Virus record (IMG/VR): IMGVR_UViG_3300027734_000044
Location: 62,001 to 126,000 of that record
Direction: 5' to 3' (one strand)
Length of the DNA stretch: 64,000 nucleotides
From: a virus
A program made the translations under genes and the position numbers. Shown here piece by piece: positions 4,573 through 23,291 of this stretch (its first letter is position 1; every line of letters starts with the position of its first letter). The notes under the pieces are model-generated. The model was given only the letters and a program-made list of their open reading frames with translations. It did no database searches and had not been told where the DNA came from.

Positions 4573-6753
<2,181 letters not shown>

Positions 6754-6775
6754 ATGGTTAATATGATCTTCCTAA

Positions 6776-7756: not shown

Positions 7757-7770
7757 CTTAATTATTTATA

Positions 7771-7959: not shown

Positions 7960-7980
7960 AATGATTGGGTCATCTATATA

Positions 7981-8445
7981 TTAATATCCTCTCTCCTGCC
8001 TGTCATGATTTTCAGCATTTTTTGCCATATAAAGATTAACAATATCCTTACTTGTCATTCCCATAGAAATACCGAAGTTCATAAAGAAATGTAATCCGTC
8101 AATCCATTCATAGAATAACTCCAATCTATCATTTTCACTAAGGTCAGAGATCTTCATTTCAGAAGCTTTCTTATTGTCTCCTTTCCAGTATTTCCATCCT
8201 GCAGATCCAATACCATCATTAACACCTCCAAGAGCATCAAACATTTCGTTTAACTCATCACTTAGTGCATGTTTGTTAACCATCCAAAAATCTGCAATTT
8301 GTTTCAAGGTCCAATCCTTAAAATCAAATCCGTATCTTGATTGTAATTCTGCTTGCTTATTGTAAATCAAGCCGAGGGTATCGTTTACCCCAGTGTGGAA
8401 ATCTTCAACTGGAAGATCCGCACATTTGTTGTCTGTGTTTGCCAT
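7981..8445 (-). CDS. Dimeric all-alpha dUTPase-like NTP pyrophosphohydrolase
   Basis: Probably hydrolyses dUTP to dUMP, keeping uracil out of DNA. It matches the all-alpha NTP-pyrophosphatase superfamily (dUTPase_2 type) rather than the trimeric beta type: a DELNE helix at residues 63-67 with metal-ligand Glu residues, GWKYWKGD at 83-90, then ELFYEWIDGLHFFMNFGISMG at 109-129 carrying the second E-x-x-D pair and His. The length of 154 is slightly short for the family. It follows the split polymerase gene by 3 bases, so the two are probably co-translated. Confidence 0.75.
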   Translation of the reverse strand: MANTDNKCADLPVEDFHTGVNDTLGLIYNKQAELQSRYGFDFKDWTLKQIADFWMVNKHALSDELNEMFDALGGVNDGIGSAGWKYWKGDNKKASEMKISDLSENDRLELFYEWIDGLHFFMNFGISMGMTSKDIVNLYMAKNAENHDRQERGY

Positions 8446-8448
8446 AAT

Positions 8449-9855
8449 TTATGATTTTTCTTTAATTACTTTTTGTATTTTCTCTATTTCTTTTTCACAT
8501 TCGAAATATTTCTTCTTTGTTGCTTTTCTTTGCCCGTAAAGTCCTTTTAATATTTCTCTTAATATAGGTTCTCTTCCTTCCTTACTATAAAATACCGCTC
8601 CTGACGAAGTTTTAATTGCACCTTCGGGTATGTTCTTAAGATTCTTACCTATATAAACCTCAGGGGATATACCCCATTGCATCATTGTATTAGGATAAAG
8701 AGAAGCAAAGTCAAAACAAGCGATCCATTCATATAATCCTTTTTCTGGCTTCTTAACATAAGCTCCTTCGAATTTAACATGATTTTCCTCTTTCCTTTCA
8801 TTTACAATTACCTGTTTTCTTTCTAAGAATTTTCTTAGCATAAGAACCTCAGTAGTCCAAACTGGAGATAATGCTCTATTGATCTCCACTCTACTTACTT
8901 CTGCGATTTTAAAGAAAGTAGAAAGTGTATCAAGTCTTTTATCTATATAGTGTACAAGAGCACAGTCAACTGCGTTATAAAATATGAACGTTTCAAAGTC
9001 TGACTCGTATAAATCTTTTAATGTTCCATTATAAGCAATCTTTTTAATCCCTATAGCTTGATTGGAAACATAATCTAATGAGTTAGACTCTCTGATTTTT
9101 ACTACCCTATCCCACTTCTTATAAATGTCAAGGTAATCGACCATTAAAACGTGCATAGGTATTTGATGCTTTCCTATAAGTACCCCACTAGGTGAAGCAA
9201 TCTTAGGATCTATACCTAATCTCTTAGCTCTGTTTATAATATAAGGCCAGTCATAACCAAACCAATTCCACCCAGTTATCAAAGGCATCTTAGGAACTAA
9301 TTTAGAAAGAAAAGTGTAGAGCATATCAAACTCACTTTCAAACTTTCTGTAATTAAAAGTCCAATCCCCATTTTGTCCTTCAAAATGATCATTAATCCTT
9401 TTCTCGATCTTTAATATCCTATCAGGACTCATATCCTCCAGACCTATAACAAGAACCTTACCTTGAGAAGAAGCCATTCCTATGGAAAGAATTCTATTCT
9501 TAGAATTCTCTGTGTCTAATGAATCTGCTCTGTTATCTGTCATCTCCACCTCAATATCGACGAAGTATTTTTTAGGCGTCTGGTAATCCCAAAGAGGCTT
9601 GGTTAATTCAGGATCTAGTGCTTCTAAAATTTCTACTACTCTATACTTATCAAACTTATATGTAGAAGATTTTTTAACAGGAAATCCGTCCCATGTTGTC
9701 CATTCTGAATCTTTCGATCTATCGCTAGCAGATGTTTTTTGCCAGACGAATTGAAGCGCTTTAGGAACTTGTAGTTTTAACAAATTTACGTCCCCTTCCT
9801 CTGTATAATGGGAGACAACTAAAGATGTACCTGAATTTTCTATATCAATAATCAT
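8449..9855 (-). CDS. 43: Family B DNA polymerase, N-terminal half (exonuclease + motif A)
   Basis: T4 gp43-like replicative polymerase fragment. The 3'-5' exonuclease is complete: YFVDIEVEM (Asp100, Glu102), LITGWNWFGYDWPYI and FYNAVDCALVHYID. Palm motif A is DFASLYPN at 382-389, carrying one catalytic aspartate. The protein ends at residue 468, in the region that in T4 gp43 lies just past motif A and before the fingers. Motif B (K-x3-N-S-x-Y-G) and motif C (D-T-D-S) are absent here and in all other frames of this window. The stop is clean and the dUTPase gene starts 3 bases later, so this is gene fission rather than a local frameshift. The C-terminal part must be encoded elsewhere if the enzyme is active. 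Confidence 0.9.
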   Translation of the reverse strand: MIIDIENSGTSLVVSHYTEEGDVNLLKLQVPKALQFVWQKTSASDRSKDSEWTTWDGFPVKKSSTYKFDKYRVVEILEALDPELTKPLWDYQTPKKYFVDIEVEMTDNRADSLDTENSKNRILSIGMASSQGKVLVIGLEDMSPDRILKIEKRINDHFEGQNGDWTFNYRKFESEFDMLYTFLSKLVPKMPLITGWNWFGYDWPYIINRAKRLGIDPKIASPSGVLIGKHQIPMHVLMVDYLDIYKKWDRVVKIRESNSLDYVSNQAIGIKKIAYNGTLKDLYESDFETFIFYNAVDCALVHYIDKRLDTLSTFFKIAEVSRVEINRALSPVWTTEVLMLRKFLERKQVIVNERKEENHVKFEGAYVKKPEKGLYEWIACFDFASLYPNTMMQWGISPEVYIGKNLKNIPEGAIKTSSGAVFYSKEGREPILREILKGLYGQRKATKKKYFECEKEIEKIQKVIKEKS

Positions 9856-9919
9856 ACTCTTATCTTACACTAATACAACTAAGAGGTTTCGATTTATTTA
9901 GGTAAAGAATATATACTAT
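9856..9919. promoter_or_regulatory. Divergent intergenic region
   Basis: Separates the leftward polymerase fragment from the rightward 101-residue gene. The 13-mer AGAATATATACTA (9906-9918) abuts the GTG start at 9920. The identical 13-mer lies in the same position before the gene starting at 10818. I see no clear leftward element for the polymerase. Confidence 0.55.
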
Positions 9920-10225
9920 GTGAAAAAAATTCTAACCTTTAAACTTTTCGAACAGGTTTATCTTAATGACATTAAACCTTTCTCCAATGATTCAAAATAT
10001 CCAAGAGGATTAAGGTTTTCTAATAGAGAGGAAGCATTAAAATCTGTAAGAAGATTACAGGAGATGTTAGATAAGAAAGAAATAGAACTTAAAGATGCAA
10101 TAATAGCTTCTTATATAATGTCGCACCGTGCAGAATTTCACAAATTCCCTAAAGCAGGAATTAAAGAAGGATTAGTTGTTTGGAAGGATTTCCTGTCACA
10201 ATTAAAAAAGAGAGAATCAGCTTAG
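9920..10225 (+). CDS. Small protein with capsid-targeting-like leader (101 aa)
   Basis: One of two convincing plus-strand genes. It starts with GTG at 9920; an overlapping ATG at 9918 is followed at once by TGA. GTG is favoured because the spacing from AGAATATATACTA to the start matches that of the gene at 10818. The N-terminus, MKKILTFKLFEQVYLND, is close to that of the metallopeptidase at 16660-17358 (KLFEQVYL in both), though the rest differs. The remainder is a helical, basic domain without recognised family. Its 3' end overlaps the convergent gene by 4 bases. Confidence 0.7.
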   Translation: MKKILTFKLFEQVYLNDIKPFSNDSKYPRGLRFSNREEALKSVRRLQEMLDKKEIELKDAIIASYIMSHRAEFHKFPKAGIKEGLVVWKDFLSQLKKRESA

Positions 10226-10818
10226 ACTTTTTTGAAGTTGTCCATGAATTTCCTAATTAATTCTAAAAGTTCGTAGTTGTTGTTAGTAGCTTTAATCTCT
10301 ATCTTAGTATCAGATTTCTTAGCCCATTCAGAAATGAATTTATAGAATGTTTTAAATGCTGAGGGTAACTGATCACTGCTTTCGTATTTTAGAACCTCTT
10401 TTAAACTTTTAGAAAATCCTAATAAGAATCTATCAGTTACCTCTTTTTCAGATTTCTCTAAATCACAATAATCAAAGAATGATGTGACGATCTCCCAAAT
10501 ATTGTCTGGGGTAATATCAGTAAACCTCCTAACAGTTCTTTCTTCTCCACTTTTTGTTAGTATCTTACATTCACAGATTGTTTTTTTGTCCTTAGAATTT
10601 TCTTTGGATGTATAAAAATCTATTCTTGCCTCTTCCGAATCAGAAGCTTTTTTATTATAGATTATCGAGAAAGTACCAACACGATTAAATACGAAAAAAC
10701 CTGATTGTTCTTTCTTCTCAAAAGAACCCTCACTATCAATTATAAACCAATTAGCTGTGATTGGCTGGATTTTCTCGTATATTGGTTTGTAATTTTCAAA
10801 CCTTAGTAAATGATTCAT
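10222..10818 (-). CDS. Hypothetical protein with capsid-targeting-like leader (198 aa)
   Basis: Begins MNHLLRFENYKPIYEK, a loose match to the leader motif seen in neighbouring genes. The body is mixed alpha/beta with many charged residues; no family recognised. The ATG is one base downstream of the 13-mer AGAATATATACTA (10820-10832), which implies a leaderless or near-leaderless mRNA if that box is a -10. It is convergent with the 101-residue gene, whose end it overlaps. Confidence 0.65.
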   Translation of the reverse strand: MNHLLRFENYKPIYEKIQPITANWFIIDSEGSFEKKEQSGFFVFNRVGTFSIIYNKKASDSEEARIDFYTSKENSKDKKTICECKILTKSGEERTVRRFTDITPDNIWEIVTSFFDYCDLEKSEKEVTDRFLLGFSKSLKEVLKYESSDQLPSAFKTFYKFISEWAKKSDTKIEIKATNNNYELLELIRKFMDNFKKV

Positions 10819-10819
10819 G

Positions 10820-10832
10820 TAGTATATATTCT
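10820..10832 (-). promoter_or_regulatory. Promoter-like 13-mer AGAATATATACTA
   Basis: Identical to plus-strand bases 9906-9918 and placed at the same one-base distance from the start codon of its gene. Probably a variant of the GATATATAA element. It overlaps the stop codon of the upstream glycosylase gene. Confidence 0.5.
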
Positions 10833-11214
10833 ACATACAATCCAAATACATTTTTAGCTTCTTATCCTTCGGCGTAAAATCCAGATCTTCTTCTACAAAT
10901 ATTCTCCATGCTTCTCTACCGTATTCTCCTACTCCTGGGAATTTCTTAGGATCTCTTATACCTATCTCCCATGCTATAGAGAATTCCCTAATCCTGTGAG
11001 CCTTTATATTTTGAAATCCAGTACTCTTAATGAATGCACTTATATTAATAGGATTTTCTCTAATAATAGATGCTGGATTAGGCCACGTTTTAAAGAAATG
11101 TGAGATCAGAGGTCTAACCTGACGGTTGTTGGTCTGATTTAATAATATACAACAGACTAGAACCTTCCAAGGATCATCTTTGTATTCTTCTTGTATTATA
11201 TTTAATTTTTGCAC
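10831..11214 (-). CDS. MBD4-like mismatch DNA glycosylase (HhH-GPD)
   Basis: Predicted base-excision glycosylase. DPWKVLVCCILLNQTNNRQV at residues 14-33, the helix-hairpin-helix FPGVGEYGREAWRIF at 92-106 and TPKDKKLKMYLD at 114-125 align by eye with the catalytic domain of vertebrate MBD4 (compare GIGKYGNDSYRIF and PEDHKLNKYHDWL). Asp117 corresponds to its catalytic Asp. The iron-sulphur cysteine loop of endonuclease III is absent, as in MBD4. MBD4 removes T or U opposite G; activity here is inferred. At 127 residues it is a minimal glycosylase core. The start is GTG. A 76-base spacer upstream holds only a weak AT-rich inverted repeat. Confidence 0.75.
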   Translation of the reverse strand: MQKLNIIQEEYKDDPWKVLVCCILLNQTNNRQVRPLISHFFKTWPNPASIIRENPINISAFIKSTGFQNIKAHRIREFSIAWEIGIRDPKKFPGVGEYGREAWRIFVEEDLDFTPKDKKLKMYLDCM

Positions 11215-11290
11215 AAAGCTAAATTAAGAAATTTCCACAGAAGTTTAATTAGATTTTGTAAAATTTTTAGAATTAATAAGAAAACGATTC
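11215..11290 (-). other. Spacer with weak hairpin
   Basis: Noncoding gap. AATAAGAA (11275-11282) and TTCTTATT (11288-11295) form an 8-bp AT-only stem that overlaps the stop of the upstream 156-residue gene. It could be a weak terminator; no GC-rich stem or long T-run is present. Confidence 0.3.
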
Positions 11291-11761
11291 TTATTGGTTA
11301 CCCTTGCCTCTGCTAAGGAACGTTTTAAAGTCCATTAAAGAAGTATCTGTAGGGTTGTTATCTTTCTTCTTCTTTTTCTTTCTAGCAGCCGGTGTACCAA
11401 CTTCTAATGAAGGAAATTGATCACCCGATCCTGTTCTCCCTGGTCCAGGAGGTATAACATTTCCCATCCCCGGTGTAGCTGTTAAAGAAGCCATTGCACC
11501 TTCTCCTTCACTAATAGGTCCAGCAATTTTATTTTTAAATACTCTATATGTTCCCCTATCTCCCTCTATTACATACCCAATAACTTCACCAGTATTATTT
11601 CTAATAGAATCATCGACCTTACCAGATCTTCCGTCTACCAAGTTTACTCTTATTCCCACTAAAGGATCCTGATCATATCTAGATGCAGAAGCATTGGTAA
11701 AACTTCTAATGCTATCTGTGGTTCCCCCACATCCGCAATCTTCGTCTAGTTTTTCTTCCAT
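11291..11761 (-). CDS. Hypothetical low-complexity protein (156 aa)
   Basis: Starts MEEKLDEDCGCGGTTDS with a CGCGG cluster. A compact beta-rich part at about residues 32-85 (GIRVNLVDGRSGKVDDS) resembles an SH3-like or KOW-like barrel. A Gly/Pro linker and a lysine run (RKKKKKKD) follow, and the C-terminus is SLMDFKTFLSRGKGNQ. The last segment echoes the F-x-x-F-[IL] motif of the capsid-targeting-like leaders, but at the other end of the protein. Function unknown. It lies 5 bases downstream of the DUF3008-like gene. Confidence 0.6.
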   Translation of the reverse strand: MEEKLDEDCGCGGTTDSIRSFTNASASRYDQDPLVGIRVNLVDGRSGKVDDSIRNNTGEVIGYVIEGDRGTYRVFKNKIAGPISEGEGAMASLTATPGMGNVIPPGPGRTGSGDQFPSLEVGTPAARKKKKKKDNNPTDTSLMDFKTFLSRGKGNQ

Positions 11762-11766
11762 AATAA

Positions 11767-12129
11767 TTATTTTTTAGTTGATATAAATTCTCTATAATCT
11801 GATAGATTTTGCATCTTCGATGCTAATGTTCTTTTCTTTTGTTTATTAGACTCAGGCTTAAGATAAGGATATATTGCGGGTACTTCTCCAGGATTTCCTT
11901 TATCCCCTAATCCTTCCTCAATTTCTTCTGGTAATCCTTTATGTTCTGTACTAGCAAAATCTTTTAAAGCTTTCTTCTTCATACTTTTTGCTATATCAAC
12001 AATAGTTTCTCTATAAGCTGATTTAATATCTTTAGGATCTAACCCCTCTTTTCCGTTAGTGTCCATCCACTTACGTACTCCGTGAGCCTGACCCATTAAT
12101 CTCTGTTGTGTTTTAGATACTGATGGCAT
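11767..12129 (-). CDS. DUF3008-like protein (120 aa)
   Basis: The N-terminus, MPSVSKTQQRLMGQAHGVRK, and the segment KALKDFASTEHKGLPEEI match the small DUF3008 family common in phages, whose function is unknown to me. The extension after residue ~70 is unrelated and ends LSDYREFISTKK, another C-terminal echo of the Y-x-E-F-I motif of capsid-targeting leaders. Basic overall. Neighbours on both sides are small phage proteins of unknown role. Confidence 0.65.
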   Translation of the reverse strand: MPSVSKTQQRLMGQAHGVRKWMDTNGKEGLDPKDIKSAYRETIVDIAKSMKKKALKDFASTEHKGLPEEIEEGLGDKGNPGEVPAIYPYLKPESNKQKKRTLASKMQNLSDYREFISTKK

Positions 12130-12130
12130 A

Positions 12131-12400
12131 TTATGTTTTAGGGAATTTTGGCTTTTTGCCTATATATTCTTTCCAAGACCAAATGAATCTTCTGTATCCA
12201 TTCTTTACTGTATTAAAGCCAGTATCACCTTTAGGTATTTTAACAGGGGAAACTGGTGGTTCATATGCACCAGTTTCTGGTGCTTCCTCTTCTGACATAG
12301 ATTTTTTAATCACATCAAACCCCTTACCCCCCTTTGGTATTTTAACAGGAGATGTTGGTGGTGTGTAAGAGCCAGTCTCGTAAGATTTTTTCTTTTTCAT
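12131..12400 (-). CDS. Small protein with duplicated PVKIPKG motif (89 aa)
   Basis: Contains two copies of a ~27-residue unit: ETGSYTPPTSPVKIPKGGKG and ETGAYEPPVSPVKIPKGDTG, each followed by F-[DN]-x-[IV]-K. The tail is basic and aromatic, GYRRFIWSWKEYIGKKPKFP. The duplication is visible in the DNA at about 12220-12270 and 12335-12385. No family recognised; short linear motifs of this kind often bind a repeated partner. Its upstream region carries the terminator/promoter hairpin at 12424-12463. Confidence 0.6.
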   Translation of the reverse strand: MKKKKSYETGSYTPPTSPVKIPKGGKGFDVIKKSMSEEEAPETGAYEPPVSPVKIPKGDTGFNTVKNGYRRFIWSWKEYIGKKPKFPKT

Positions 12401-12423
12401 TTTGTCTTTAAACCAGGGTATAC

Positions 12424-12463
12424 AAAAAACTCCTGATAGATTATATATCCATCAGGAGTTTCT
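12424..12463. terminator. Bidirectional hairpin terminator with promoter motif in its loop
   Basis: AAACTCCTGAT (12427-12437) pairs perfectly with ATCAGGAGTTT (12451-12461), flanked by A and T runs, which suits an intrinsic terminator on either strand. The loop contains GGATATATAA on the minus strand (12441-12450), a full copy of the recurrent promoter-like element. It could end transcription from the DUF4494-like gene and restart it for the 89-residue gene. Confidence 0.75.
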
Positions 12464-12478
12464 AATTAATAGTTTATC

Positions 12479-12709
12479 TTATCCTTTGATATGAACCACT
12501 GATTCAATTTTAGATTGAGCTACAGAAGTAACTTCGAAATCTAAATGAGCAGTTGAATTATCTCCAGCAAGATGGGCATGCAATCTTGTTTCAGCTTCAG
12601 TAACAGCTTCCGCTTCTACTAAGATTTCAGACCTTGATGCTTTTGCTTTTCCTGTACTTTTAGAAACCTCACCAGTGAAAAAGCTTACCTTACAAATGTA
12701 ATATCCCAT
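12479..12709 (-). CDS. DUF4494-like protein (76 aa)
   Basis: Begins MGYYICKVSFFTGEVSKSTG, followed by a charged strand and an AEAVTEAETRL helix. This layout resembles DUF4494, a small family typical of Bacteroidetes and their phages whose function is unknown to me. The stop lies 16 bases before the hairpin terminator, and it starts 5 bases after the Hc1-like gene's stop. The two were probably transcribed together. Confidence 0.6.
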   Translation of the reverse strand: MGYYICKVSFFTGEVSKSTGKAKASRSEILVEAEAVTEAETRLHAHLAGDNSTAHLDFEVTSVAQSKIESVVHIKG

Positions 12710-12714
12710 TGTAA

Positions 12715-12894
12715 TTAGGCTTTAGTGTTTTTAGTTTCTTGTACATTAACTCTTAAATCTTGAGCTAATTTTTTAAGATCTTGACAAGCTGTACGAACGC
12801 GAGTTCCTGCAGACTTGTTACCTTTTACGTAGAAAGCTTCCATGTCTTTTTCCATGCTTGCTACCAATTCTTTAATTTTTTCGTAATTTTCCAT
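12715..12894 (-). CDS. Hc1/histone-H1-like protein (59 aa)
   Basis: Small basic protein, MENYEKIKELVASMEKD at the start, then AFYVKGNKSAGTRVRTACQD and LKKLAQDLRVNVQE. This matches the Hc1-type histone-like proteins widespread in Bacteroidetes, which are two helices joined by a K/R-rich turn. Predicted role is binding DNA, phage or host. The start ATG follows an AT-rich stretch containing GATATAG and AATATATC. It is too short for many gene callers, but the frame and family resemblance are clear. Confidence 0.75.
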   Translation of the reverse strand: MENYEKIKELVASMEKDMEAFYVKGNKSAGTRVRTACQDLKKLAQDLRVNVQETKNTKA

Positions 12895-12928
12895 GTTGAT
12901 ATATTTTCTATATCATAGAGATGAAACC

Positions 12929-13246
12929 CTAGTTTGTTTCATTGATTTTGAAGGATTTTAAAACTCTCCTTCCTAAAGTAGTCAAAGAAAAATAATTTGC
13001 TGAATCCTCTTGAACTTTGTATTGGATATACTTCTTCTGATTTCTAACCCAAGCCATAGTTGGTTTTCTCCCAGAGTCATCCTCAGGTATACTATCAAGA
13101 AATTCCATTAATTCTTTCTTTGTAACCTTTTCTTTCTCTGCTATGAAAGAAAGAACCTTAGTTGTTACTTGAGAAGGTTTAGCCCAAGCTATAGGTATTC
13201 TTGATTCCGTAATAAATTCGTTATATGAAAGAATCTTATTAATCAT
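12929..13246 (-). CDS. Protein with capsid-targeting-like leader and winged-helix-like body (105 aa)
   Basis: The first 14 residues, MINKILSYNEFITE, match the T4 capsid-targeting leader pattern ([FY]-x-E-F-I-x-E), with predicted cleavage after Glu14. The rest, VLSFIAEKEKVTKKELMEF then YFSLTTLGRRVLKSF, has the helix pattern and hairpin of a winged-helix DNA-binding domain. Its start overlaps the end of the 177-residue gene by 8 bases. If packaged, it could act on host DNA at once; that is inference. Confidence 0.7.
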   Translation of the reverse strand: MINKILSYNEFITESRIPIAWAKPSQVTTKVLSFIAEKEKVTKKELMEFLDSIPEDDSGRKPTMAWVRNQKKYIQYKVQEDSANYFSLTTLGRRVLKSFKINETN

Positions 13247-13772
13247 GATCTCTTCTAGAATAGATTACTATTTTGCTCTCCGGACCTTCTTGGATACTCC
13301 ACTTATCGTAGCTCCATTCATCCATTAAAGATTTAGCTTTCTCCATGTACTCTTCAAAATCCATATCTATATTTAAAGGCATCTCATCATAAATAATAGA
13401 AACCTTAGGATTAGATTGTAAATAATCTTTAATACACTCTCCTGCGATCTTATAGAATCTCATAAGCTCGGATTTAGTAAGTATAAACACATCATCTTCT
13501 CTAGACTTAAAGTCAGAGTCTTTAACTAAATAATCGTCCATTACAGACTCTCTAATAGGCTCTACAGAAAGAACTGCATAACTGTTTTCAGCGGATTCGA
13601 TGGTTATATTCCTAGAAAGCTTACCAAGGTTAACTACAAATCCTAGTTCATCCTCTTCACCCTCTATCTTGAAGAAATATTGTGACAATTTACCTTCTTT
13701 CTTCTTTACGAAAAAATCTCTACCGTATCCATCTTCGTTTAGAAATTGCTCAAATAATTTAATATGTTTCAT
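13239..13772 (-). CDS. Hypothetical protein with capsid-targeting-like leader (177 aa)
   Basis: Starts MKHIKLFEQFLNE, one of the cleanest matches here to the T4 leader, with predicted cleavage after Glu13. The remainder is acidic alpha/beta, including YFFKIEGEEDELGFVVNLG and a C-terminal KIVIYSRRDHD; no family recognised. The ATG is 3 bases after an AGATATATAA element (13776-13785), implying a very short mRNA leader. Confidence 0.7.
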   Translation of the reverse strand: MKHIKLFEQFLNEDGYGRDFFVKKKEGKLSQYFFKIEGEEDELGFVVNLGKLSRNITIESAENSYAVLSVEPIRESVMDDYLVKDSDFKSREDDVFILTKSELMRFYKIAGECIKDYLQSNPKVSIIYDEMPLNIDMDFEEYMEKAKSLMDEWSYDKWSIQEGPESKIVIYSRRDHD

Positions 13773-13775
13773 ATT

Positions 13776-13785
13776 TTATATATCT
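13776..13785 (-). promoter_or_regulatory. Promoter-like element AGATATATAA
   Basis: Three bases upstream of the ATG of the 177-residue protein, between it and the 90-residue gene. With a T4-late-like start site the transcript would be nearly leaderless. Confidence 0.5.
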
Positions 13786-13788
13786 TAA

Positions 13789-14061
13789 TTAAAAACCTCT
13801 CTCTGGAATTTTAGCGGATGTGTTAGGTATGTATTGGTTCTTTTTCCTCCTTTTAAATATCTCTCCTCTAACTACGTTACCATAGTATTTATCTATAAGA
13901 TTCCATGCTTCCTCTAATTCAGTTACATCAGTATCCTCCATTGCAGAAAACTCTTCCCTAACGGAATTAATCCTGTCTCTGGCTTCTTCTAATAGTCTTT
14001 TACTATTAGAAAGGTCATACTTTGAGGTATGACCTTCCTTAATTTCACTGAATTTTTTCAT
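13789..14061 (-). CDS. Small helical protein with short leader motif (90 aa)
   Basis: Begins MKKFSEIKEGHTSKYDLSNS; MKKFSEIKE is a shortened form of the leader motif. Residues 20-60 are predicted as long charged helices (coiled-coil-like), and the C-terminus is basic, KRRKKNQYIPNT. The codons for residues ~9-24 form two tandem perfect hairpins (13989-14036). It starts 3 bases after the MoxR gene's stop. Function unknown. Confidence 0.6.
   Translation of the reverse strand: MKKFSEIKEGHTSKYDLSNSKRLLEEARDRINSVREEFSAMEDTDVTELEEAWNLIDKYYGNVVRGEIFKRRKKNQYIPNTSAKIPERGF
13989..14036 (-). promoter_or_regulatory. Two tandem perfect hairpins inside the start of a gene
   Basis: On the plus strand CTAATAGT-CTTTT-ACTATTAG (13989-14009) is followed after one base by AAGGTCATAC-TTTGAG-GTATGACCTT (14011-14036). 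Both stems are perfect (8 and 10 bp). In the mRNA they begin about 26 bases after the AUG of the 90-residue gene. This could be a structured RNA element, operator or attenuator; function is inferred only from symmetry. Confidence 0.5.
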
Positions 14062-14064
14062 TAA

Positions 14065-15582
14065 TTAAAATTCCGTTCCAAGCTCTGATCCCCATTTATC
14101 AGCTAGAGGAGCTATACATTGGATTGCTTTAGCATCTTTTTTCAAGTAAGCATGCTCTTTAAATAAGTTAGAGATAGCAGCGTTACCCCATTCTGGAGAA
14201 TTAACTCTTTGTAAGTAGTTAGCAAAGTTACATACTTCAGTAGCTGTTAATTCGGTGTCTTTACTTTTTCTAATAATAGCAGAAAGTAATGCGTGTGCAT
14301 AATCAGCTCTTGGTCTTCCAGACTTAGGATCTTTCTTATCGTCAGGAAGAGGTGCTCTTTCTGGGTTAGTGAACGGAAGCATCAAATCTTTAACAGGAAT
14401 TTCTTTTGCAATTTTATAGAAGTCTAAAAATGCTGCAGCAGCATCATATCCAACTTCTACTTGAAATGCACTAATAATATCTCTATCTGATAATTCGGTT
14501 ACACCCTCAGAAGCAAGTTCATCCATAACTCTTCTTAATCCCATTGCAGCATCTGTCCAAGCTCTAGGAGTTGGATATTTAATCATTTGCTTAGCAGGAT
14601 CAAGGTTATGGAAATATTCTTGTTGAAATTCTAAGAAGTCTAATAACTCAGGAATAACAATATTTTTTAATCTGCCACCTTCGATGAATTTTCTTAGGCC
14701 AGCAACGGTAGGTACAAAATTAACAACAGAGAAACGATCTCTAAGAGCTGTACCCATTGCTTTAACTTCTCTTGGGTCATCTTCCGCTCTGTTACCAGCA
14801 GCAACGATATACCATTTGCTTGGAATTTGATATGTTTGTCCAAGTCTTCTACTTTGTGCAAGTTTCATGAAAACTTTAATAACCTCTTGAGGCATACGAT
14901 TTAACTCATCGATAAAAAGAATTCCACCCATATTATCTTTACCATTATCATTAGGTAAAAGGTTTACAGATACGTTAGATCTTGTAATACCTCTTCCGTA
15001 AGGATCTTCTTCTGAAGGACTTGAAACGTCTACCACTGAAGGTACACCTGCAAAGTCAACTGGTTCTGCAAATTCACCATCTACGAAAGCTAAGTTTAGT
15101 GGCTTACCGTACATTTCTTTCCCTAGTTCGTCACATACTTGAGCAACGATTTGGGTTTTACCAATACCAGGTGCTCCGAAAATAAAAATAGGCTTAACGT
15201 CTAATACACCTTGATTGTTTCCTTCCTCGCCAGCTTTTAATACTGCTTTAAGACGAGTTTTAATCATCTTCTTAAGTTCCGGCTCTTTAACGTCAAGAAC
15301 GTCTTCACTTTTTGGATAAGTTAAAGGAACTTGAGCCTCGTTTGCCATCTCTGCATATGGAGTACCAGCAAAGAAATCTAAAAGTTGTTGCTCGATAGAT
15401 CCTTTATCAGGGTCGAATGCAACAGCCATAGGTTTACCAGCTTTAGCTCCAGAAGGTATTAGTCTTACTAATCCGTCTTTTATTGCTGTTTTTAAAGATT
15501 GCATCCATCCAGAAATCTTTGAGCCAATTCTTTCAAGGTATCCTTCGTTAACAAACTCATTAAAATTGTAAATACGTTTCAT
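14065..15582 (-). CDS. MoxR-type AAA+ ATPase with capsid-targeting-like leader
   Basis: AAA+ ATPase of the MoxR/RavA kind, expected to remodel proteins together with a VWA partner. Walker A is GAPGIGKT (about residues 135-142), Walker B GGILFIDELNR (~216-226), sensor 1 is VAAGNRAEDD (~257-266) and the arginine-finger region is ALRDRF (~278-283). The N-terminus, MKRIYNFNEFVNE, is a close match to the T4 capsid-targeting leader (F-x-E-F-V-x-E); such a leader is foreign to MoxR proteins. It lies 30 bases downstream of the VWA gene and, with the metallopeptidase before that, forms a three-gene unit. Confidence 0.9.
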   Translation of the reverse strand: MKRIYNFNEFVNEGYLERIGSKISGWMQSLKTAIKDGLVRLIPSGAKAGKPMAVAFDPDKGSIEQQLLDFFAGTPYAEMANEAQVPLTYPKSEDVLDVKEPELKKMIKTRLKAVLKAGEEGNNQGVLDVKPIFIFGAPGIGKTQIVAQVCDELGKEMYGKPLNLAFVDGEFAEPVDFAGVPSVVDVSSPSEEDPYGRGITRSNVSVNLLPNDNGKDNMGGILFIDELNRMPQEVIKVFMKLAQSRRLGQTYQIPSKWYIVAAGNRAEDDPREVKAMGTALRDRFSVVNFVPTVAGLRKFIEGGRLKNIVIPELLDFLEFQQEYFHNLDPAKQMIKYPTPRAWTDAAMGLRRVMDELASEGVTELSDRDIISAFQVEVGYDAAAAFLDFYKIAKEIPVKDLMLPFTNPERAPLPDDKKDPKSGRPRADYAHALLSAIIRKSKDTELTATEVCNFANYLQRVNSPEWGNAAISNLFKEHAYLKKDAKAIQCIAPLADKWGSELGTEF

Positions 15583-15603
15583 TTTTTTATTTTTATTTTC
15601 TCT

Positions 15604-15613
15604 TTATATATCC
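15604..15613 (-). promoter_or_regulatory. Promoter-like element GGATATATAA
   Basis: 21 bases upstream of the MoxR ATG and touching the VWA gene's stop codon. The sequence between is almost pure A/G (AGAGAAAATAAAAATAAAAAA), a Bacteroidetes-like A-rich leader. Confidence 0.55.
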
Positions 15614-16659
15614 TAAATGGATGTGACTTCTTTATTGGGTAAAGTAATATCTATTCTATTACCAAATGGAATATCGTTACTGAATGGTTGTCCATTAAAC
15701 GTAAGAAGAACCCATATACATTTATCTTCGTACTCACCTATACCATATTGAGAAGCATTAGGGAAAGTAGCTTCGCCATCAGTAAAATAAATAAATACTG
15801 AAGGTACTATTCCTTTATCTAATAAATTTTCTTCCGTCCATTCAAATGGAGGATAAAATTCGGTACCTCCACTTTGAAGCTTTCCTACATCTATAGGATC
15901 ACCTGGTTGTATATGATCTACTCTATAGATATCAGTGTGACAGAATATAACATAAAGATCCTGTGGCGAATAGGCATCAACTATTGCTTTAGCTTCTCCT
16001 AAGAATTGAGCAACCATCTTATCCGATATAGATCCAGATGTATCTATAGCAACCACTACACATTCGAAATCTTCTTTGTATCTTTTGTAACCGTATTGTG
16101 CTTTACCTCCACCTAGGAATCTTCTGGAAGGAAGAGTATATTTACTTTTAGAAATAGCATCATCTATAAAAACTTCCAATTCTTTTCTCCAATCTACTAC
16201 AGCGGTTCTCATTCTCTGTAAAGCAGCTCTGATACCACCAGGTATATTACCTCTCGATTGAGATTCTGCGGCAGTTGTAGCAGCTTTCCATTGATCTTTT
16301 TTTGCATCAGGATCTTTGTCACCTGGCTCTCCGTCTCCAAGAGATCCGGTAGGATATACTTCACCTATTACAGTATGCCCAGATGGCTGTTTCCATGGGG
16401 TAACTTCATAGGATGCTCCAGGTTCTTTAGGATCAACTTCTTCAAATTCATTACCTCTTCCACTACCTGAATCTTTGCCGGGTTTTCCTGGTTTAGAATC
16501 CCCGTTAGGATCATTTTCTTCTCCACCCTCTTCATTACCCGGCTCGTCTTCTTCTTCGTCCCATCCCTCTGTATTTTTAGGTGGCTTAGTAGATTCTCCA
16601 GAGCCAGGTCCTTTTTGAGATCTAACTATTTTCTTAACCTCTGTAATTTTAGCTTTCAT
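15613..16659 (-). CDS. VWA-domain protein (C-terminal half of a DUF2201-like protein)
   Basis: Residues 1-130 are a disordered, Gly/Pro/Glu/Asp-rich tail. The C-terminal ~150 residues are a von Willebrand A domain with a complete MIDAS: DTSGSIS (~204-210), the Thr of GGTEF (~263) and FTDGEA (~290). DFECVVVAID at its start fits the first strand. In cellular DUF2201 proteins a metallopeptidase-like domain and a VWA domain lie on one chain; here the upstream gene supplies the first part and its TAA is followed directly by this ATG. It probably works with the MoxR ATPase encoded next. Confidence 0.85.
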   Translation of the reverse strand: MKAKITEVKKIVRSQKGPGSGESTKPPKNTEGWDEEEDEPGNEEGGEENDPNGDSKPGKPGKDSGSGRGNEFEEVDPKEPGASYEVTPWKQPSGHTVIGEVYPTGSLGDGEPGDKDPDAKKDQWKAATTAAESQSRGNIPGGIRAALQRMRTAVVDWRKELEVFIDDAISKSKYTLPSRRFLGGGKAQYGYKRYKEDFECVVVAIDTSGSISDKMVAQFLGEAKAIVDAYSPQDLYVIFCHTDIYRVDHIQPGDPIDVGKLQSGGTEFYPPFEWTEENLLDKGIVPSVFIYFTDGEATFPNASQYGIGEYEDKCIWVLLTFNGQPFSNDIPFGNRIDITLPNKEVTSI

Positions 16660-17358
16660 TTATTTTAAATATTTAGTTACATCAGATTCTGATATAGGAT
16701 CGAAATCAATTTCTCCAGTAGATGGATCAATAGATCTTACAACACCATATGTATTTGTTTTAGTATCTCTAATTACATCACCAATAACAATTTCAGAATC
16801 GGGAGAATCCCCTTCTCCCCCTCCATCAGGTTCATCTGGTGGTTTAGCACCAGACTTAACTAGCCATTCATAAATTTGTTCAGACGATAGATTAACGAAT
16901 TTCTTATCATCAGGATGGTATCCGCACCCAGGATAAAGAGCTTCTTTAGGCATTGTTCCTACACCTTCTAATAATTGATTTAAAGCGTAATCTGCTGCTA
17001 CGTTCCATAATTGAGGATCTGGCATTTTTCTAGCAAAGTGAAATAATACGTTGTGCATTATCTCGTGGCATATAACGAATATAATTTCGCCCTCGGTTTT
17101 TGCTAAAACAAACCCTGGATCATAGTGTATGCTAACACCATCTGTTGCCATCGTCTTATATGGCAAATTTCGATTTTCTCTGATTACTAAATCGGAAAGA
17201 AGTTTTCTGAAGAATGGATATTTACCCATAATATCGAAGCAACAAAGCCTCATTTTTTTAAAAGCATCTTCCGATATACTATTTCCTTTTGGCTCGTCTT
17301 TATCTAAATAAACTTGTTCAAATAATTTAAACTCGCTCCATCCGAGGATTCTTCTCAT
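16660..17358 (-). CDS. DUF2201-like metallopeptidase domain with capsid-targeting-like leader
   Basis: Zincin-like domain with the HExxH motif in FVICHEIMHNVLFHFARK (about residues 94-111) and a following WNVAADYALNQLL helix, as in the putative metallopeptidase domain found N-terminal to VWA in DUF2201 proteins. It starts MRRILGWSEFKLFEQVYL, a leader-like sequence sharing KLFEQVYL with the 101-residue protein at 9920. A Pro/Gly/Asp linker lies at ~170-190 and a small beta domain (IVIGDVIRDTKTNTYGVV) at the end. Peptidase activity is predicted from the motif only. Confidence 0.8.
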   Translation of the reverse strand: MRRILGWSEFKLFEQVYLDKDEPKGNSISEDAFKKMRLCCFDIMGKYPFFRKLLSDLVIRENRNLPYKTMATDGVSIHYDPGFVLAKTEGEIIFVICHEIMHNVLFHFARKMPDPQLWNVAADYALNQLLEGVGTMPKEALYPGCGYHPDDKKFVNLSSEQIYEWLVKSGAKPPDEPDGGGEGDSPDSEIVIGDVIRDTKTNTYGVVRSIDPSTGEIDFDPISESDVTKYLK

Positions 17359-17371
17359 TTCTATTTTTTAT

Positions 17372-17381
17372 TTATATATCT
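17372..17381 (-). promoter_or_regulatory. Promoter-like element AGATATATAA
   Basis: 13 bases upstream of the metallopeptidase ATG, overlapping the stop codon of the ligase/NMNAT fusion gene. Likely drives the metallopeptidase-VWA-MoxR unit. Confidence 0.55.
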
Positions 17382-19354
17382 TCATTAGGGTTTTCGAGTT
17401 CTTGAATTTCTCTATTGAATTCATTAAACAATACTGCAATAGATTTAGGAACTTTACTTTTGAATTCTTGAAAATCACCATTTCTAATATAATCTCTTAC
17501 TGTATTATTATCAGACCATGCTGGTGTTTTAAATATCTCTATGTCTCCACCGTTAAGATCATATTTATTTCTAACCCATTCTCTTTGGAGTAGCATATTT
17601 TCGAAATCATTCTCACCTATACAAATAGATGCTGGGTTTGCCACCTTAGAAACTGTATTAATAGCATCTTCTAATAAATTACTAGGAACTATTTCGAATC
17701 CTGCAAACATCTTATCATTTTCAGAAACTAGAGATCCTATTGCTTTTCTAACAAGCTCGTCAGAGAAAGGGAATTTATTATTAGGATCGCCTCCTGGGTG
17801 AACCACACATAAAAATACTGGAAGATCGTTTTCTTTTTTAACTCTAGAACACATCTTTAAGTGTCCATTATTAAAAGGCTGAAATTTCCCAATTATAACA
17901 TTGACCTTACCGTTAGATTCATTCAATATCTTAATCTTCTTTTTCTCTTTATTTGTAGAAACTACTTTTTTAAAATCCTTAAAAGAAAAGAATTCTGAAG
18001 TATCCTCCTCTGATTCTTTATCCGAATTTTCAGATTCTAAGATCATATCAGTATGATCAGATAATAATTTTTCCTCTACAGCCTCAGGTTCTTCTTCATA
18101 TTCTACATTGAATCTAGATCCTGCTTTTTTAAACCAAACAAAAGTAGGCATACCTAATGATTCCTCTATTCTTTCTTTTCTTTTAGCATTTATATAAGAA
18201 GCTATTTCTTCTACTAGTTGGTTAAATTGATTTATTAACCCAGAGGTAAAAAATCCATGAGGCTTTCTTTTAAACTTTCTAAATGAATTAAGAATCATTT
18301 GTAGAATATCAATATATGAGTCATCTTTATCTAAATAAGAAATAACCTCAGTATCCTGTATTAAATCCTTATTTAGTGCAAATTCTTCAGATTTTAAATA
18401 CTCAGGTTTGTCAAAGTCTACTCCGAGATATCTTTCACCCTCTTCGTAGATAAAGTTCTTAAATACGGAGAATACAAAATTAATGTATCTCTCCTCTGGC
18501 TCTATTCCTTTAGCATCAAAAGATTCTACTCCTTTTTCGAGTATGAAGTTCATTACATCTATTAAACATAAAGAATATATGTCACTTGGGAAATGAGATG
18601 ATCTTGTTGCTTTTCTATCTTTTGATATTTCATAGAAAACAGGATCTACCATCTTAGCAAGAATTGTCTCATCTTTTCCTTCGTCAGAAAATTTAAAAAC
18701 TAAGGAATCAATTTCCCCGTGAAGATCCTTACCTAATGTTGTTTTAACTATTTCTGGGTTTAAAATAGATATAAGATATTTAGAGAAACTCTCAGTTTTA
18801 AATCTATTTCTCAGATCCATTAAAGGAGTAGAAATAAAATCCATTATTGATAATTTCTGATCCTCGCTCAGTTTTCCTTGAAAAATAATTGGCGCTCTTT
18901 CAACACCAATCTTATCTGCCCATTTGTCAAGTTCATCTTTATCCTGTACTGTTCTTTCAGTTTCGCCAAATTCATCCCTAATAAGTATGTGTGTTAATAT
19001 TAAATGATTTTTAGGGACTCTTTCATATTCTATTCTGACAGGTTTAGTATTAGGAAAATATGTCATACCAAATCTCCATCCTTTAGGGATTTCTTCTTTA
19101 GTAGATTCTGGCAAAGAGTCTATATAATTTATAGGCTTTTCGTAATAAGACATTAATATCCTATCGACTTTAGTAATAGGATTTTCTTGATCCTTCTTAT
19201 AAAATGAAATATTATTTCCAGTAAAATCTCTCTCAAAAGAGAAAGTGGATCCATCAAGATTTTCCGTTACGGTCAATTCTTTACCAAAAAGCTTTTCTAT
19301 GAAGCTTTTTCCTTTATCTTGAAAGATGTCCGATAAGTGTTTTATTCCTGACAT
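17372..19354 (-). CDS. Ligase-like (Lys-less) domain fused to NMN adenylyltransferase-like domain
   Basis: Residues ~1-240 resemble the RNA-ligase/nucleotidyltransferase fold. TVTENLDGSTF (28-38) occupies motif I, RFGMTYFPNTKPVRIEYERV motif III, GEIDSLVFKF (213-222) motif IV and AKMVDP (233-238) motif V. The motif I lysine (K-x-D-G) that carries AMP is Asn32 here, so normal covalent adenylation looks impossible. Residues ~478-640 are a cytidylyltransferase-like NMNAT: GKFQPFNNGH for the phosphate-binding loop and NTVRDYIRNGD at the end. That domain would join NMN and ATP to give NAD. A linker near residue 445 contains FFSFKDFKKVV. The fusion is complete, with no frameshift. Confidence 0.75.
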   Translation of the reverse strand: MSGIKHLSDIFQDKGKSFIEKLFGKELTVTENLDGSTFSFERDFTGNNISFYKKDQENPITKVDRILMSYYEKPINYIDSLPESTKEEIPKGWRFGMTYFPNTKPVRIEYERVPKNHLILTHILIRDEFGETERTVQDKDELDKWADKIGVERAPIIFQGKLSEDQKLSIMDFISTPLMDLRNRFKTESFSKYLISILNPEIVKTTLGKDLHGEIDSLVFKFSDEGKDETILAKMVDPVFYEISKDRKATRSSHFPSDIYSLCLIDVMNFILEKGVESFDAKGIEPEERYINFVFSVFKNFIYEEGERYLGVDFDKPEYLKSEEFALNKDLIQDTEVISYLDKDDSYIDILQMILNSFRKFKRKPHGFFTSGLINQFNQLVEEIASYINAKRKERIEESLGMPTFVWFKKAGSRFNVEYEEEPEAVEEKLLSDHTDMILESENSDKESEEDTSEFFSFKDFKKVVSTNKEKKKIKILNESNGKVNVIIGKFQPFNNGHLKMCSRVKKENDLPVFLCVVHPGGDPNNKFPFSDELVRKAIGSLVSENDKMFAGFEIVPSNLLEDAINTVSKVANPASICIGENDFENMLLQREWVRNKYDLNGGDIEIFKTPAWSDNNTVRDYIRNGDFQEFKSKVPKSIAVLFNEFNREIQELENPNEDI

Positions 19355-20548: not shown

Positions 20549-21148
20549 TTATAGATTATTTGGTTGGAATATTGGCTGGTTTGGCGTTTCTTGCCTCGTG
20601 TAATATAGATTGATTCTATTCATTGCTATATCATCAAGAACAGGTACTTCACCTTTTTTAACTTCACCTTTTTGATAAAGGTCAGCGATATTGTCTTCTA
20701 ATTGTTTTTCTGATCTAATATTAGGAAGTTCACTCTTAGCAAAATCCTCATTAGTGTGTCTCATGAATTCAAGATTGACCTCGCTATCATTTGCTGGTGC
20801 ACTTTTAGCTACCTCAAACTTAGTTGGTCCAAATACTCTTTTAAGAACGCTAGGAACAACAGAAACAAGCCCAAATAGATTTTCGTATCCAGTATCTAAA
20901 TCACCAGTTCTACCAGATCTATTTTGTTGAGCAAGTCCTTTACCTACTCTAGCCATATTGTTAATTCTATCCTCCATTTTCTGGAAGAAATTCTGTGCTT
21001 TAGAAAGTATACTTGGGTTGCTAGACAAATTATAATAATTTTTAGCTCTATCCTCGTAACTATTGGCATTGTTTCCAAGATGCCTAGACCACATTATTTC
21101 TTCCGCTTCATTAAGACAAAATCTTTCGTAATCTTTAATATTTTTCAT
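20549..21148 (-). CDS. Hypothetical protein with capsid-targeting-like leader (199 aa)
   Basis: Begins MKNIKDYERFCLNEAEE; Y-x-x-F-x-L-N-E is a one-residue-longer variant of the leader. The body is polar and helical (YYNLSSNPSILSKAQNFFQK) with a Gly/Ser/Arg-rich stretch and a C-terminal Gln/Pro/Asn tail. Unknown function. It heads a run of genes on the minus strand and sits 20 bases after a GGATATATAA element. Confidence 0.65.
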   Translation of the reverse strand: MKNIKDYERFCLNEAEEIMWSRHLGNNANSYEDRAKNYYNLSSNPSILSKAQNFFQKMEDRINNMARVGKGLAQQNRSGRTGDLDTGYENLFGLVSVVPSVLKRVFGPTKFEVAKSAPANDSEVNLEFMRHTNEDFAKSELPNIRSEKQLEDNIADLYQKGEVKKGEVPVLDDIAMNRINLYYTRQETPNQPIFQPNNL

Positions 21149-21168
21149 CGAGATTCTTTTCTTTCCTT

Positions 21169-21178
21169 TTATATATCC
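21169..21178 (-). promoter_or_regulatory. Promoter-like element GGATATATAA
   Basis: 20 bases upstream of the 199-residue gene and just after the uvsW stop; the spacer AAGGAAAGAAAAGAATCTCG includes a purine-rich AAGGAAAG. Confidence 0.55.
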
Positions 21179-21183
21179 AAAAT

Positions 21184-22725
21184 CTAAATTTTGATCTCAT
21201 ATATCTTGTACTCGAATTGTTCTTTTTTATAAATTTCTATTCTTTCCTTGGAATGCTTCATTAAATAATTATCCTTGCCTTCCCAACTGAAGTCATCTAC
21301 AAAATCTATAATATTTACTTTCTCCTTGCCATCATATAGTCTCATGCCCCTTCCTAGACTTTGTTTAATTAAAACCTCAGATTTGTATGATTCGGTAAGA
21401 AATATATTATGTATGTTCTTAACTGAAATACCAGTAGACATAGTACCAAAAGAAGCTACCATTATTTTATTAATACCCTCTTCCATTTTTTTTGTAAAAA
21501 TATCTCTCTTGTCAGGATCAGTATCCCCGTCTATATAATAAACCTCCCTATCGCTAGATCTGTCACGAATACCCTCGTATATTCTTTTGCCGTACCCTTC
21601 TCCCACAGACTGGAAAAGTATTAACGAATTTTTAGATGTCTTAAGAACAAAGTTGATAATATAATTAAGTCTCTTATCAGAATTAACAACAAGTTTTCTT
21701 TCGAGATTAAAAAGCTCATTACCTTCCATCTCGTTTTTTTCCTCCTTAAGCTTAGATAGTTTTTCTTTAACCTCTGGATCCATCCAGTCCATTTTAACTA
21801 TCTTAATTGAAACTGGTGTAGCATAATTATTATCAAATAGGAATTTAGGAGATATCTCCATAATCAAGGGTCCTAAGAATTGCTGAATAGTTAAATACTC
21901 CGCTGTATTTTTATTAGCTAATGTTCCGGATAAACCAAATCTCCATTTAGAGTCTTTACATAATGCAACTACCTTTTTAATAGATGCACTTTGGGCTTGG
22001 TGACACTCATCCACAAATACTGCCTCAACATCATCGAAAAAATCAGGATCCATTTTAACAAGTGATTGATAAGTACCTATCATTAATCCCCCTGGAATTT
22101 TCTTCTTATTTGCACCATGAATTTGTTGAATCTCACAGTCTTCTAATTTTTCTAATCCATACTCTTCAAAATCCTCAGATCCTTGAATAACTAAGTTAGT
22201 GTTAGGCACAACCATCAAGAATTTTTTAACCTTTAGTACCTCTTTAAGATAAGCCATTACCATAAAAGCTATAAGGGTCTTTCCTGAACTTGTTGCCACC
22301 TCTGAAACTGATAGTTTAAACTTGATAATCTTCCAAGCAGTTTCTATTTGATAATCTCTTGGCATTTTATTAGGATCGCCGCCAACTCCGTCTTTAAAAA
22401 ATTCATTACACCATTCAGTATAAGACTCTAGTGTAAATTCGTTGTCTATTATTTGTCCTAATCCGTCTATCTGAATTTCTATTTTATATTTTTGACATAT
22501 ATGATAAATCTCAGACCATAATCCGATAGGAACTCTCCATATAGGAAGTCTTTTATCAACAAAGCATATTGCCCCATCCCAATGTTTTTTCTTAACCAAT
22601 GGATGGAAAAAGTGATTATGTATTTTTCTAGTTAATGATATCTCAATTTGTTTTCTCTCAAACTCCTCATCGTAATCTATAAGGCTTAACCAATTTTTAT
22701 CTTCACATACTACAAATTTTAACAT
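21184..22725 (-). CDS. uvsW: UvsW-like DNA/RNA helicase
   Basis: Superfamily 2 helicase of recombination-dependent replication and fork reversal. The N-terminal ~110 residues match UvsW's substrate domain (FFHPLVKKKHWDGAICF). Motifs: RDYQIETAW (Q-like), ATSSGKT (Walker A, ~140-146), VFVDECHQAQ (DECH box), LSGTLANK (motif III) and IKQSLGRGMRL (motif VI). The 513-residue length is close to T4 UvsW. It is encoded beside a UvsY-like protein and the primase, as expected for a T4-type recombination block. The gap to the homing-endonuclease remnant is 2 bases. Confidence 0.9.
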   Translation of the reverse strand: MLKFVVCEDKNWLSLIDYDEEFERKQIEISLTRKIHNHFFHPLVKKKHWDGAICFVDKRLPIWRVPIGLWSEIYHICQKYKIEIQIDGLGQIIDNEFTLESYTEWCNEFFKDGVGGDPNKMPRDYQIETAWKIIKFKLSVSEVATSSGKTLIAFMVMAYLKEVLKVKKFLMVVPNTNLVIQGSEDFEEYGLEKLEDCEIQQIHGANKKKIPGGLMIGTYQSLVKMDPDFFDDVEAVFVDECHQAQSASIKKVVALCKDSKWRFGLSGTLANKNTAEYLTIQQFLGPLIMEISPKFLFDNNYATPVSIKIVKMDWMDPEVKEKLSKLKEEKNEMEGNELFNLERKLVVNSDKRLNYIINFVLKTSKNSLILFQSVGEGYGKRIYEGIRDRSSDREVYYIDGDTDPDKRDIFTKKMEEGINKIMVASFGTMSTGISVKNIHNIFLTESYKSEVLIKQSLGRGMRLYDGKEKVNIIDFVDDFSWEGKDNYLMKHSKERIEIYKKEQFEYKIYEIKI

Positions 22726-22727
22726 TA

Positions 22728-23291
22728 CTAGTAATTATTTTTATACTTCCAGAGAAATCCCCCAGCAGTTTTTCCGCCACCTCTAAGTACTTTTTTAATT
22801 GATACCCCAATGTAAGACTCAGCATCTTTTATAGAGGGAAACTCATTTAATATTTCACCATCTAATCCTATCTGAAAAACAGGCTTATAATGAGATTCCA
22901 CCAATTTTTTTTTACTCTCCTCTGAAAATTTAAAACCAAGGGTTCTTTGATTTCCCAGCATTCTTTTATGTATTCCTTTAAGATTTTCTCTAATTTTTTC
23001 AGTAACTATTCCTTTTTTTGAAATACTTATATTCTTCCTGTGTTCATCTGTAAATTTTCTTTCGCCATTTCCTTCTCCCCCGTTGCTTAAATTCCTTAAA
23101 GGACCTCTAGATAAATCTTTTCTACCTATTAATTCTATCATATTTTTTTCAATTTCAAACGAATCAGCTTCAATAAGATTATCTTTATATTTAATTATAA
23201 TAGGTTCAAGCCCTTGTTCTAATATATTTTTTATATGGAATAAAATGTAGAATCTAATTGGAAGTATTGCCTGATAAAAATTCCTGTAACT
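22728..23291 (-). pseudogene. 5'-truncated homing endonuclease (GIY-YIG type) remnant
   Basis: The 137-residue ORF from 23141 is the C-terminal part: ELIGRKDLSRGPLRNLSNGGEG, then NUMOD-type segments (KFTDEHRKNISISKKG) and a C-terminal DNA-binding helix region ending GGFLWKYKNNY. The same frame is open to 23291 and reads ...RFYILFHIKNILEQGLEPII..., the segment that usually precedes GRKDLG in phage GIY-YIG endonucleases. No GIY-YIG catalytic module is found, and the upstream part overlaps the end of the UvsY-like gene. It is therefore a decayed mobile element between uvsY and uvsW; a residual DNA-binding peptide from 23141 is possible. Confidence 0.7.

Follow-up and report, generated by a model that had tools for sequence, protein, structure and literature searches.

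A MoxR-VWA-metallopeptidase locus in a T4-like virus

The IMG/VR virus record IMGVR_UViG_3300027734_000044 was analysed over a stretch of 64,000 nucleotides (positions 62,001 to 126,000 of the record), which is called the window here. It contains three abutting genes on the minus strand that encode a zincin-type metallopeptidase of the DUF2201_N family, a VWA protein and a MoxR-type AAA+ ATPase (Table 1). The virus is T4-like and belongs to uncultured aquatic bacteria, and T4-like replication and baseplate genes are present in the window. The zincin matches the front of Pfam DUF2201_N (5.8e-21) and positions 9-160 of the 394 positions of phrog_1314. The VWA protein matches Pfam DUF2201 (1.9e-17), the tail of DUF2201_N and positions 161-391 of phrog_1314; the two proteins are the two halves of this single phage family. 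The ATPase matches Pfam AAA_5 (1e-9) and PHROGs phrog_1297 (1.5e-43). A preliminary description of this DNA had placed a zincin with a HEIMH motif, a VWA protein with a full metal ion-dependent adhesion site (MIDAS) and a MoxR ATPase side by side at this locus, and open reading frames (ORFs), Pfam and PHROGs confirm it.

The active-site motifs, which had been called intact, were read directly and are conserved among relatives. In the ATPases of 27 relatives, G136, G139 and K142 of the Walker A motif and D225 of the Walker B motif are invariant, and E226 is almost invariant. Residues H98, E99, H102 and H107 of the zincin and the D, S and S of the MIDAS are invariant in 35 viral-contig sequences. 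The zinc ligands, the MIDAS and Walker residues, the sensor asparagine and the arginines are also conserved when 18 relatives from phages and plasmids are aligned. The exception in this alignment is the relative in Atu_ph07 (L027, 5425-6714), an example named by Iyer et al., in which HQxxH replaces HExxH; its peptidase may therefore be inactive. Degeneracy of the zinc motif or the MIDAS in relatives, an outcome that the preliminary description had allowed for, was thus not found. The ratio of nonsynonymous to synonymous polymorphism (pN/pS) is 0.13-0.30 in comparison with two relatives, and the sequences place all active-site motifs under purifying selection.

Table 1. Features of the locus, in window coordinates
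Feature	Position	Strand	Basis
MoxR-type AAA+ ATPase, 505 aa, with leader and ~115-aa N-terminal extension	14065..15582	-	AAA_5, phrog_1297, AlphaFold2 (AF2)
Walker B DE of ATPase	14905..14910	-	read directly
Walker A GAPGIGKT of ATPase	15154..15177	-	read directly
ATPase leader MKRIYNFNEFVNE, resembling the T4 capsid-targeting sequence	15544..15582	-	leader-class enrichment, T4 comparison
GATATATA, late-type promoter motif before ATPase	15605..15612	-	direct reading, motif counts
VWA protein, C-terminal half of DUF2201, 348 aa, with acidic low-complexity linker	15613..16659	-	Pfam, PHROGs
MIDAS D294 codon of VWA	15778-15780	-	read directly
MIDAS T266 codon of VWA	15862-15864	-	read directly
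MIDAS core DTSGS of VWA	16030..16044	-	read directly
VWA N-terminal segment MKAKITEVKKIV, possible docking strand	16624..16659	-	similar in T1 relatives
Zincin-type metallopeptidase, N-terminal half of DUF2201, 232 aa	16660..17358	-	Pfam, PHROGs
Small C-terminal beta domain of zincin, KOW/SH3-like by eye	16663..16803	-	sequence comparison, AF2
HEIMH zinc motif (HExxHx4H) of zincin	17053..17067	-	read directly
Zincin leader MRRILGWSEFKLFEQ	17314..17358	-	leader-class enrichment, direct reading
GATATATA, late-type promoter motif before zincin, overlapping the end of the upstream gene	17373..17380	-	direct reading, motif counts

The AF2 model of the ATPase has a predicted local distance difference test score (pLDDT) of 80, and in fold it most closely resembles NorQ and NorQ-NorD complexes. 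A profile comparison places midasin nearest to the ATPase among solved sequences; a phmmer search of the ATPase against the PDB gave zero matches. The closest folds to the VWA protein are those of the Rea1/MDN1 MIDAS, and the zincin region lies nearest to MJ1213 and M48 peptidases by profile.

Distribution of the module

The preliminary description considered such a machine unknown from phages, and this claim has to be withdrawn. A tblastn search of INPHARED found 201 records with a relative of the VWA protein, 274 with one of the zincin and 383 with one of the ATPase. The phages include N4 (gp25 with gp24), LIT1, Vequintavirinae, jumbo phages and cyanophages, so the possibility, also considered earlier, that the trio occurs only in non-phage operons does not hold. 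Relatives also occur in 47 plasmid records, some of them conjugative, and one such module lies beside type IV secretion genes. All 16 of the DUF2201-bearing phage and plasmid records that were searched whole contain a MoxR of the family. For jumbo phages, a MoxR and metallopeptidase-vWA pair has been described, with a proposed role in virion assembly and proteolysis (Iyer et al. 2021, PMC7824862), and a MoxR two-subunit pair was noted in a Bacillus phage in an earlier paper (PMC2147016). The module itself is thus an already known and widespread phage and plasmid type. What is new in the lineage of the window is the split chain, the capsid-targeting-like leaders and the late-type motifs.

Two other labels were considered and set aside. 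phrog_1314 is named HNH endonuclease, as are N4 gp25 and numerous RefSeq entries, but the match is to a zincin and a VWA domain, and the name seems to be an error that has spread. A defence system was also rejected: PADLOC has no match for the VWA protein or the zincin and gives the ATPase only weak generic AAA matches. Outside phages, the chromosome of Limnoglobus roseus has at least five DUF2201 loci (L188, L189, L191, L193, L194). In two conjugative plasmids (L018, L019), a gene of ~300 aa lies between or near the MoxR and peptidase-VWA genes, and in L019 this region is directly ahead of type IV secretion genes.

Separate genes for the peptidase and VWA halves

The TAA stop codon of the zincin gene is followed immediately by the ATG of the VWA gene. 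Two near relatives have TAA or TAATAA as the stop, with 3-6 nt ahead of the VWA start, and in all three the stop and start are in frame. The abutting codons and the division of a normally single DUF2201 chain had both been recognized from the sequence, and comparison bears them out. The peptidase and VWA parts are fused in 80/80 bacterial loci, 72 of which have MoxR nearby. Among 80 environmental viral loci, 71 encode a fused chain, 7 are split and 2 are cut off by a contig end.

Split modules occur in two types. T1 has the order zincin, VWA, ATPase and is syntenic with the window; T2 has the order ATPase, zincin, VWA. Two contigs, G011 (L110, L114) and G004 (L113, L097), each carry both types, and the second module of G004 is interrupted by the contig end. 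The T2 module of G011 sits between orthologs of two genes that are directly adjacent in the window phage, which has no T2 at that site. T1 and T2 each form a clade nested among fused relatives, and the sequences show that the ancestral chain was fused. The best tree needs two changes to account for the split, and one origin is not rejected (approximately unbiased test, p 0.109). The small C-terminal beta domain of the zincin is present in 11/11 split zincins and was not seen in the fused chains inspected. The shared domain favours one origin and the best tree favours two; a single origin for all splits is not established.

It is very improbable that the split is a frameshift or assembly artefact or is bypassed through stop-codon read-through. 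The in-frame stop and start of the window and its two near relatives would allow such an explanation, but the same split is seen in 11 modules from separate contigs, all of whose zincins have the additional beta domain. Recoding is further opposed by the stop codon itself, which is TAA and is doubled in L013, and by the out-of-frame junctions of L030, L032 and L033 (34, 47 and 2 nt, respectively). The split is a lineage trait, and since it leaves the homology to the phage MoxR and DUF2201 module unaffected, the window carries a variant of that module. An AF2 run on an artificial zincin-VWA read-through chain (mean pLDDT 72.5) joined a strand at residues 238-241, near the VWA N-terminus, to the beta domain of the zincin. 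The model suggests that the C-terminal beta domain and the VWA N-terminus dock.

Capsid-targeting-like leaders

The ATPase and the zincin begin with a leader that resembles the capsid-targeting sequence of T4, and the VWA protein does not, as had been noted at the start. The T4 internal proteins IPII and IPIII start with MKTYQEFIAE, in which YQEFIAE has the same spacing as FNEFVNE of the window ATPase. In T4, the first ten residues are enough for capsid entry; residues 4 and 7 act in targeting, and residues 8 and 10 in processing (PMC9026906). The leader pattern was defined as [ILVM]xx[FYW]xx[FYW] near the ORF start, with the expectation taken from internal positions. It is found in 25/152 ORFs of the 129.8-kb record, where 2.8 are expected (p 1e-16). 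An earlier count with a different, E-containing pattern gave 18 against 4.6 expected.

The window-like modules, which largely bear leaders, form one clade (support 100/99), and neighbours of these modules also have the leader throughout the clade. In 14 control loci from N4-like, jumbo and other phages, it occurs only 2 times, which is the chance level. In the fused relatives L008 and L035, the leader stands at the N-terminus of the fused chain. The VWA protein lacks one because it is the C-terminal half of such a chain, and its leaderless state requires no special function as an explanation. A T4-type prohead protease (PF03420) is encoded in the record of L032 (G006) and in LR756500. The L032 protease gene (L112, 405-2495) has a long tail with 15 copies of YxxY[LI][AG]E, compared with 0.3 in shuffled sequences; these repeats have a 14-residue period and resemble the leader motif.

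Late-type motifs upstream of the leader genes

The octamer GATATATA lies 22 nt before the zincin gene and 30 nt before the ATPase gene; the VWA gene follows the zincin gene directly and has no upstream motif of its own. No other 8-mer is as over-represented upstream of genes as GATATATA (22 genes, 0.8 expected), and the whole record contains 25 copies on both strands. The motif or a one-base variant precedes 15/25 leader genes and 7/135 others (p 8e-10). The tail-type genes at 4573, 30566 and 44805 are among those that have GATATATA and no leader, as are two genes with leader-like N-termini. In relatives, it precedes 24/46 leader genes and 7/145 others (p 4e-12), in a set of orthologous loci that are not fully independent. 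In L032, it also precedes three head-region genes, one of them that of the prohead protease, and in LR756500 it likewise precedes the prohead protease gene; the replication genes of the window have none upstream. We infer from the genes that follow it that GATATATA is a late promoter.

Both the zincin and the ATPase genes are preceded by GATATATA in the window and in 7/8 other T1 modules, at slightly varied distances. The zincin gene of L110 has the variant AATATATAA in its place, and L034 is the T1 exception in which the motif is missing before both genes. The plain T4 late promoter TATAAATA was considered as a general signal and rejected, because only 5 genes have it upstream; a search of the T4 internal protein genes showed no copy at a distance of 40 bp or less. 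A second upstream motif, TATATTAGCTAAGTAAACCAATTAAA, precedes ~16 left-arm genes (G000, contig 225-17700; L002), none of them leader genes, and is likely an early-type promoter.

Several other genes with leaders or leader-like starts were observed. An adenylate kinase of the window (1344-1937; ADK, 5.4e-37) has the leader-like N-terminus MKIKNFKEF and no GATATATA. One leader protein of L003 (14177-15601; contig 34177-35601) has an OmpA-family domain (PF00691, 3.2e-6), and a tandem of ~5 related small genes in the same locus (969-4082; contig 20969-24082) starts with MTREEFI or similar.

Possible function of the module

The three products may form one ATP-driven protein-remodelling protease, in which a MoxR AAA+ ring pairs with a VWA adaptor and a zinc peptidase. 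The split zincin and VWA halves would probably re-associate, and the metal site of the VWA MIDAS would hold an acidic residue of a client or partner. The module would be transcribed along with late (virion) genes. The leaders would bring the ATPase and the zincin into the prohead core, with the VWA protein carried along through its binding to the zincin, and a T4-type prohead protease would trim the leaders at a [LIVF]xE site. The complex would then be packaged and probably ejected with the DNA, so that host proteins would be unfolded and cleaved as infection begins. The preliminary description had suggested a role either at the start of infection or on virion proteins during assembly. A virion or early-infection role gains support from the leader enrichment, the late-type promoter motifs and the match to T4; the choice between its two forms is weighed below. 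We give the full chain from late expression to probable ejection a little less than an even chance.

Several observations weigh against packaging and ejection. Since the VWA protein has no leader, its packaging would depend on a putative interaction. L034 retains the module although both its ATPase and its zincin lack the leader and the motif, and an adenylate kinase is among the leader genes. A prohead protease was not found in the window's own record, which is an incomplete fragment, and the pooled promoter test includes orthologous loci, which makes it partly non-independent. Virion data from jumbo phages give weak support, because the list of phAPEC6 virion proteins that includes a MoxR relative (6 peptides, 19% coverage) also includes replication proteins, and carry-over is possible. 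The phAPEC6 MoxR has no such leader, and its peptidase-VWA protein, gp264, is not among the listed virion proteins. In a UFV_DC4 virion preparation, a protein annotated as MoxR-like AAA was detected by one peptide. Finally, N4 gp24 and gp25 are middle genes (PMC4193335), so the module works there in cells without packaging; no experimental study of gp24/gp25 function was found in the literature collection searched.

The same observations bear on the alternatives. The module could act as a chaperone-protease of virion assembly that is made late, enters the prohead core, and builds or processes the head without acting in the next host; the protein would afterwards be broken down or remain as a minor constituent. 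Iyer et al. put forward a similar role for jumbo phages, and their proposal, together with a precedent in ATV (PMC7824862), speaks in favour of the assembly role, as do the occurrence of the late-type motif before head genes and the resemblance of the leader to prohead-protease substrates. However, N4-like phages have the module as middle genes, conjugative plasmids have it without a capsid, and L034 keeps it without a leader. The basic activity is therefore not tied to heads, and we consider a pure assembly role unlikely, if still a serious contender. Somewhat less probable is an intracellular protease that remodels host or phage proteins in the producing cell, as would be expected for N4 gp24/gp25, with the leader and promoter merely setting the time and place of synthesis. 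Middle transcription in N4, the plasmid and chromosomal relatives and the leaderless L034 version fit such an activity, but the leader and late-type motif on the zincin and ATPase in 8/9 T1 modules and the lack of the motif before the replication genes speak against it. A maturation factor that activates a metal cofactor or inserts it, like NorQ-NorD, with a zinc domain that binds the client uncut, appears improbable. NorQ and its complexes are the closest solved folds of the ATPase, and HQxxH in Atu_ph07 would suit mere binding, but all other sequences examined keep HExxHx4H unchanged, and a binding site needs no such invariance.

If packaging followed by ejection is correct, it can be extended to the whole clade, though more tentatively. 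These phages would use leaders to load an AAA+, MIDAS and zinc peptidase machine into the capsid, and the injected machine would immediately remodel or destroy host proteins; the leader with GATATATA would mark ~20 further candidate injected proteins in the genome. The search for the target of the MoxR-VWA-zincin module, which hundreds of phages carry, is narrowed if one lineage does package it, because its activity must then be of use in the prohead or as infection begins. With the leader and late-type motif together, a simple sequence rule could predict which proteins uncultured T4-like phages inject, and the natural split indicates a place to divide the fused protein in structural and biochemical studies.

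Comparison with known systems

The closest known system is the N4 gp24/gp25-like module (phrog_1297 and phrog_1314), which has the same three domains and catalytic residues. The window has all the parts that define the phage MoxR and DUF2201 module: a MoxR AAA+ protein with Walker A and B motifs, sensor and arginines, a DUF2201_N-type HExxH zincin and a VWA domain with a complete MIDAS. It departs from the usual, though not defining, single peptidase-VWA chain. N4 and nearly all others have the fused chain and no leader, and the N4 genes are middle genes, whereas the window trio is split, bears leaders and has the late-type motif.

Midasin (Rea1/MDN1), NorQ-NorD and RavA-ViaA share with the trio an AAA ring and a MIDAS-bearing VWA protein. 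In none of them, to our knowledge, does the VWA chain include a zinc peptidase domain. Unlike the trio, midasin is a single giant chain; RavA-ViaA and NorQ-NorD have side-by-side MoxR and VWA genes, as the window does, but no significant sequence match to these two families was obtained, and NorQ was matched by fold only. The jumbo-phage pair of Atu_ph07 (ASV44729/ASV44728), for which a virion role was proposed, has a homologous ATPase and metallopeptidase-vWA protein (Iyer et al. 2021). It differs in its fused chain and its HQxxH in place of HExxH, and no capsid-targeting leader was reported for it. The VMAP, FtsH, beta-propeller and effector domains of the MoxR-vWA ternary conflict systems (Kaur et al. 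2020) are absent from the genes adjoining the trio, and the PADLOC bpMoxR match of the ATPase is below the cut-off.

The leaders find their counterpart in T4, in which the otherwise unrelated IPI, IPII, IPIII and Alt share, as the proteins here do, a short N-terminal aromatic-xx-aromatic-[LIV]-x-E leader. The T4 cargo consists of small basic proteins or an ADP-ribosyltransferase, whereas the cargo of the window would be an AAA+ protease, and the window leader, with its putative targeting role, is 3 residues longer. Two marks of a T4-type internal protein are present: a capsid-targeting-like leader with an [LIVF]xE site, and a gp21-type prohead protease in the lineage.

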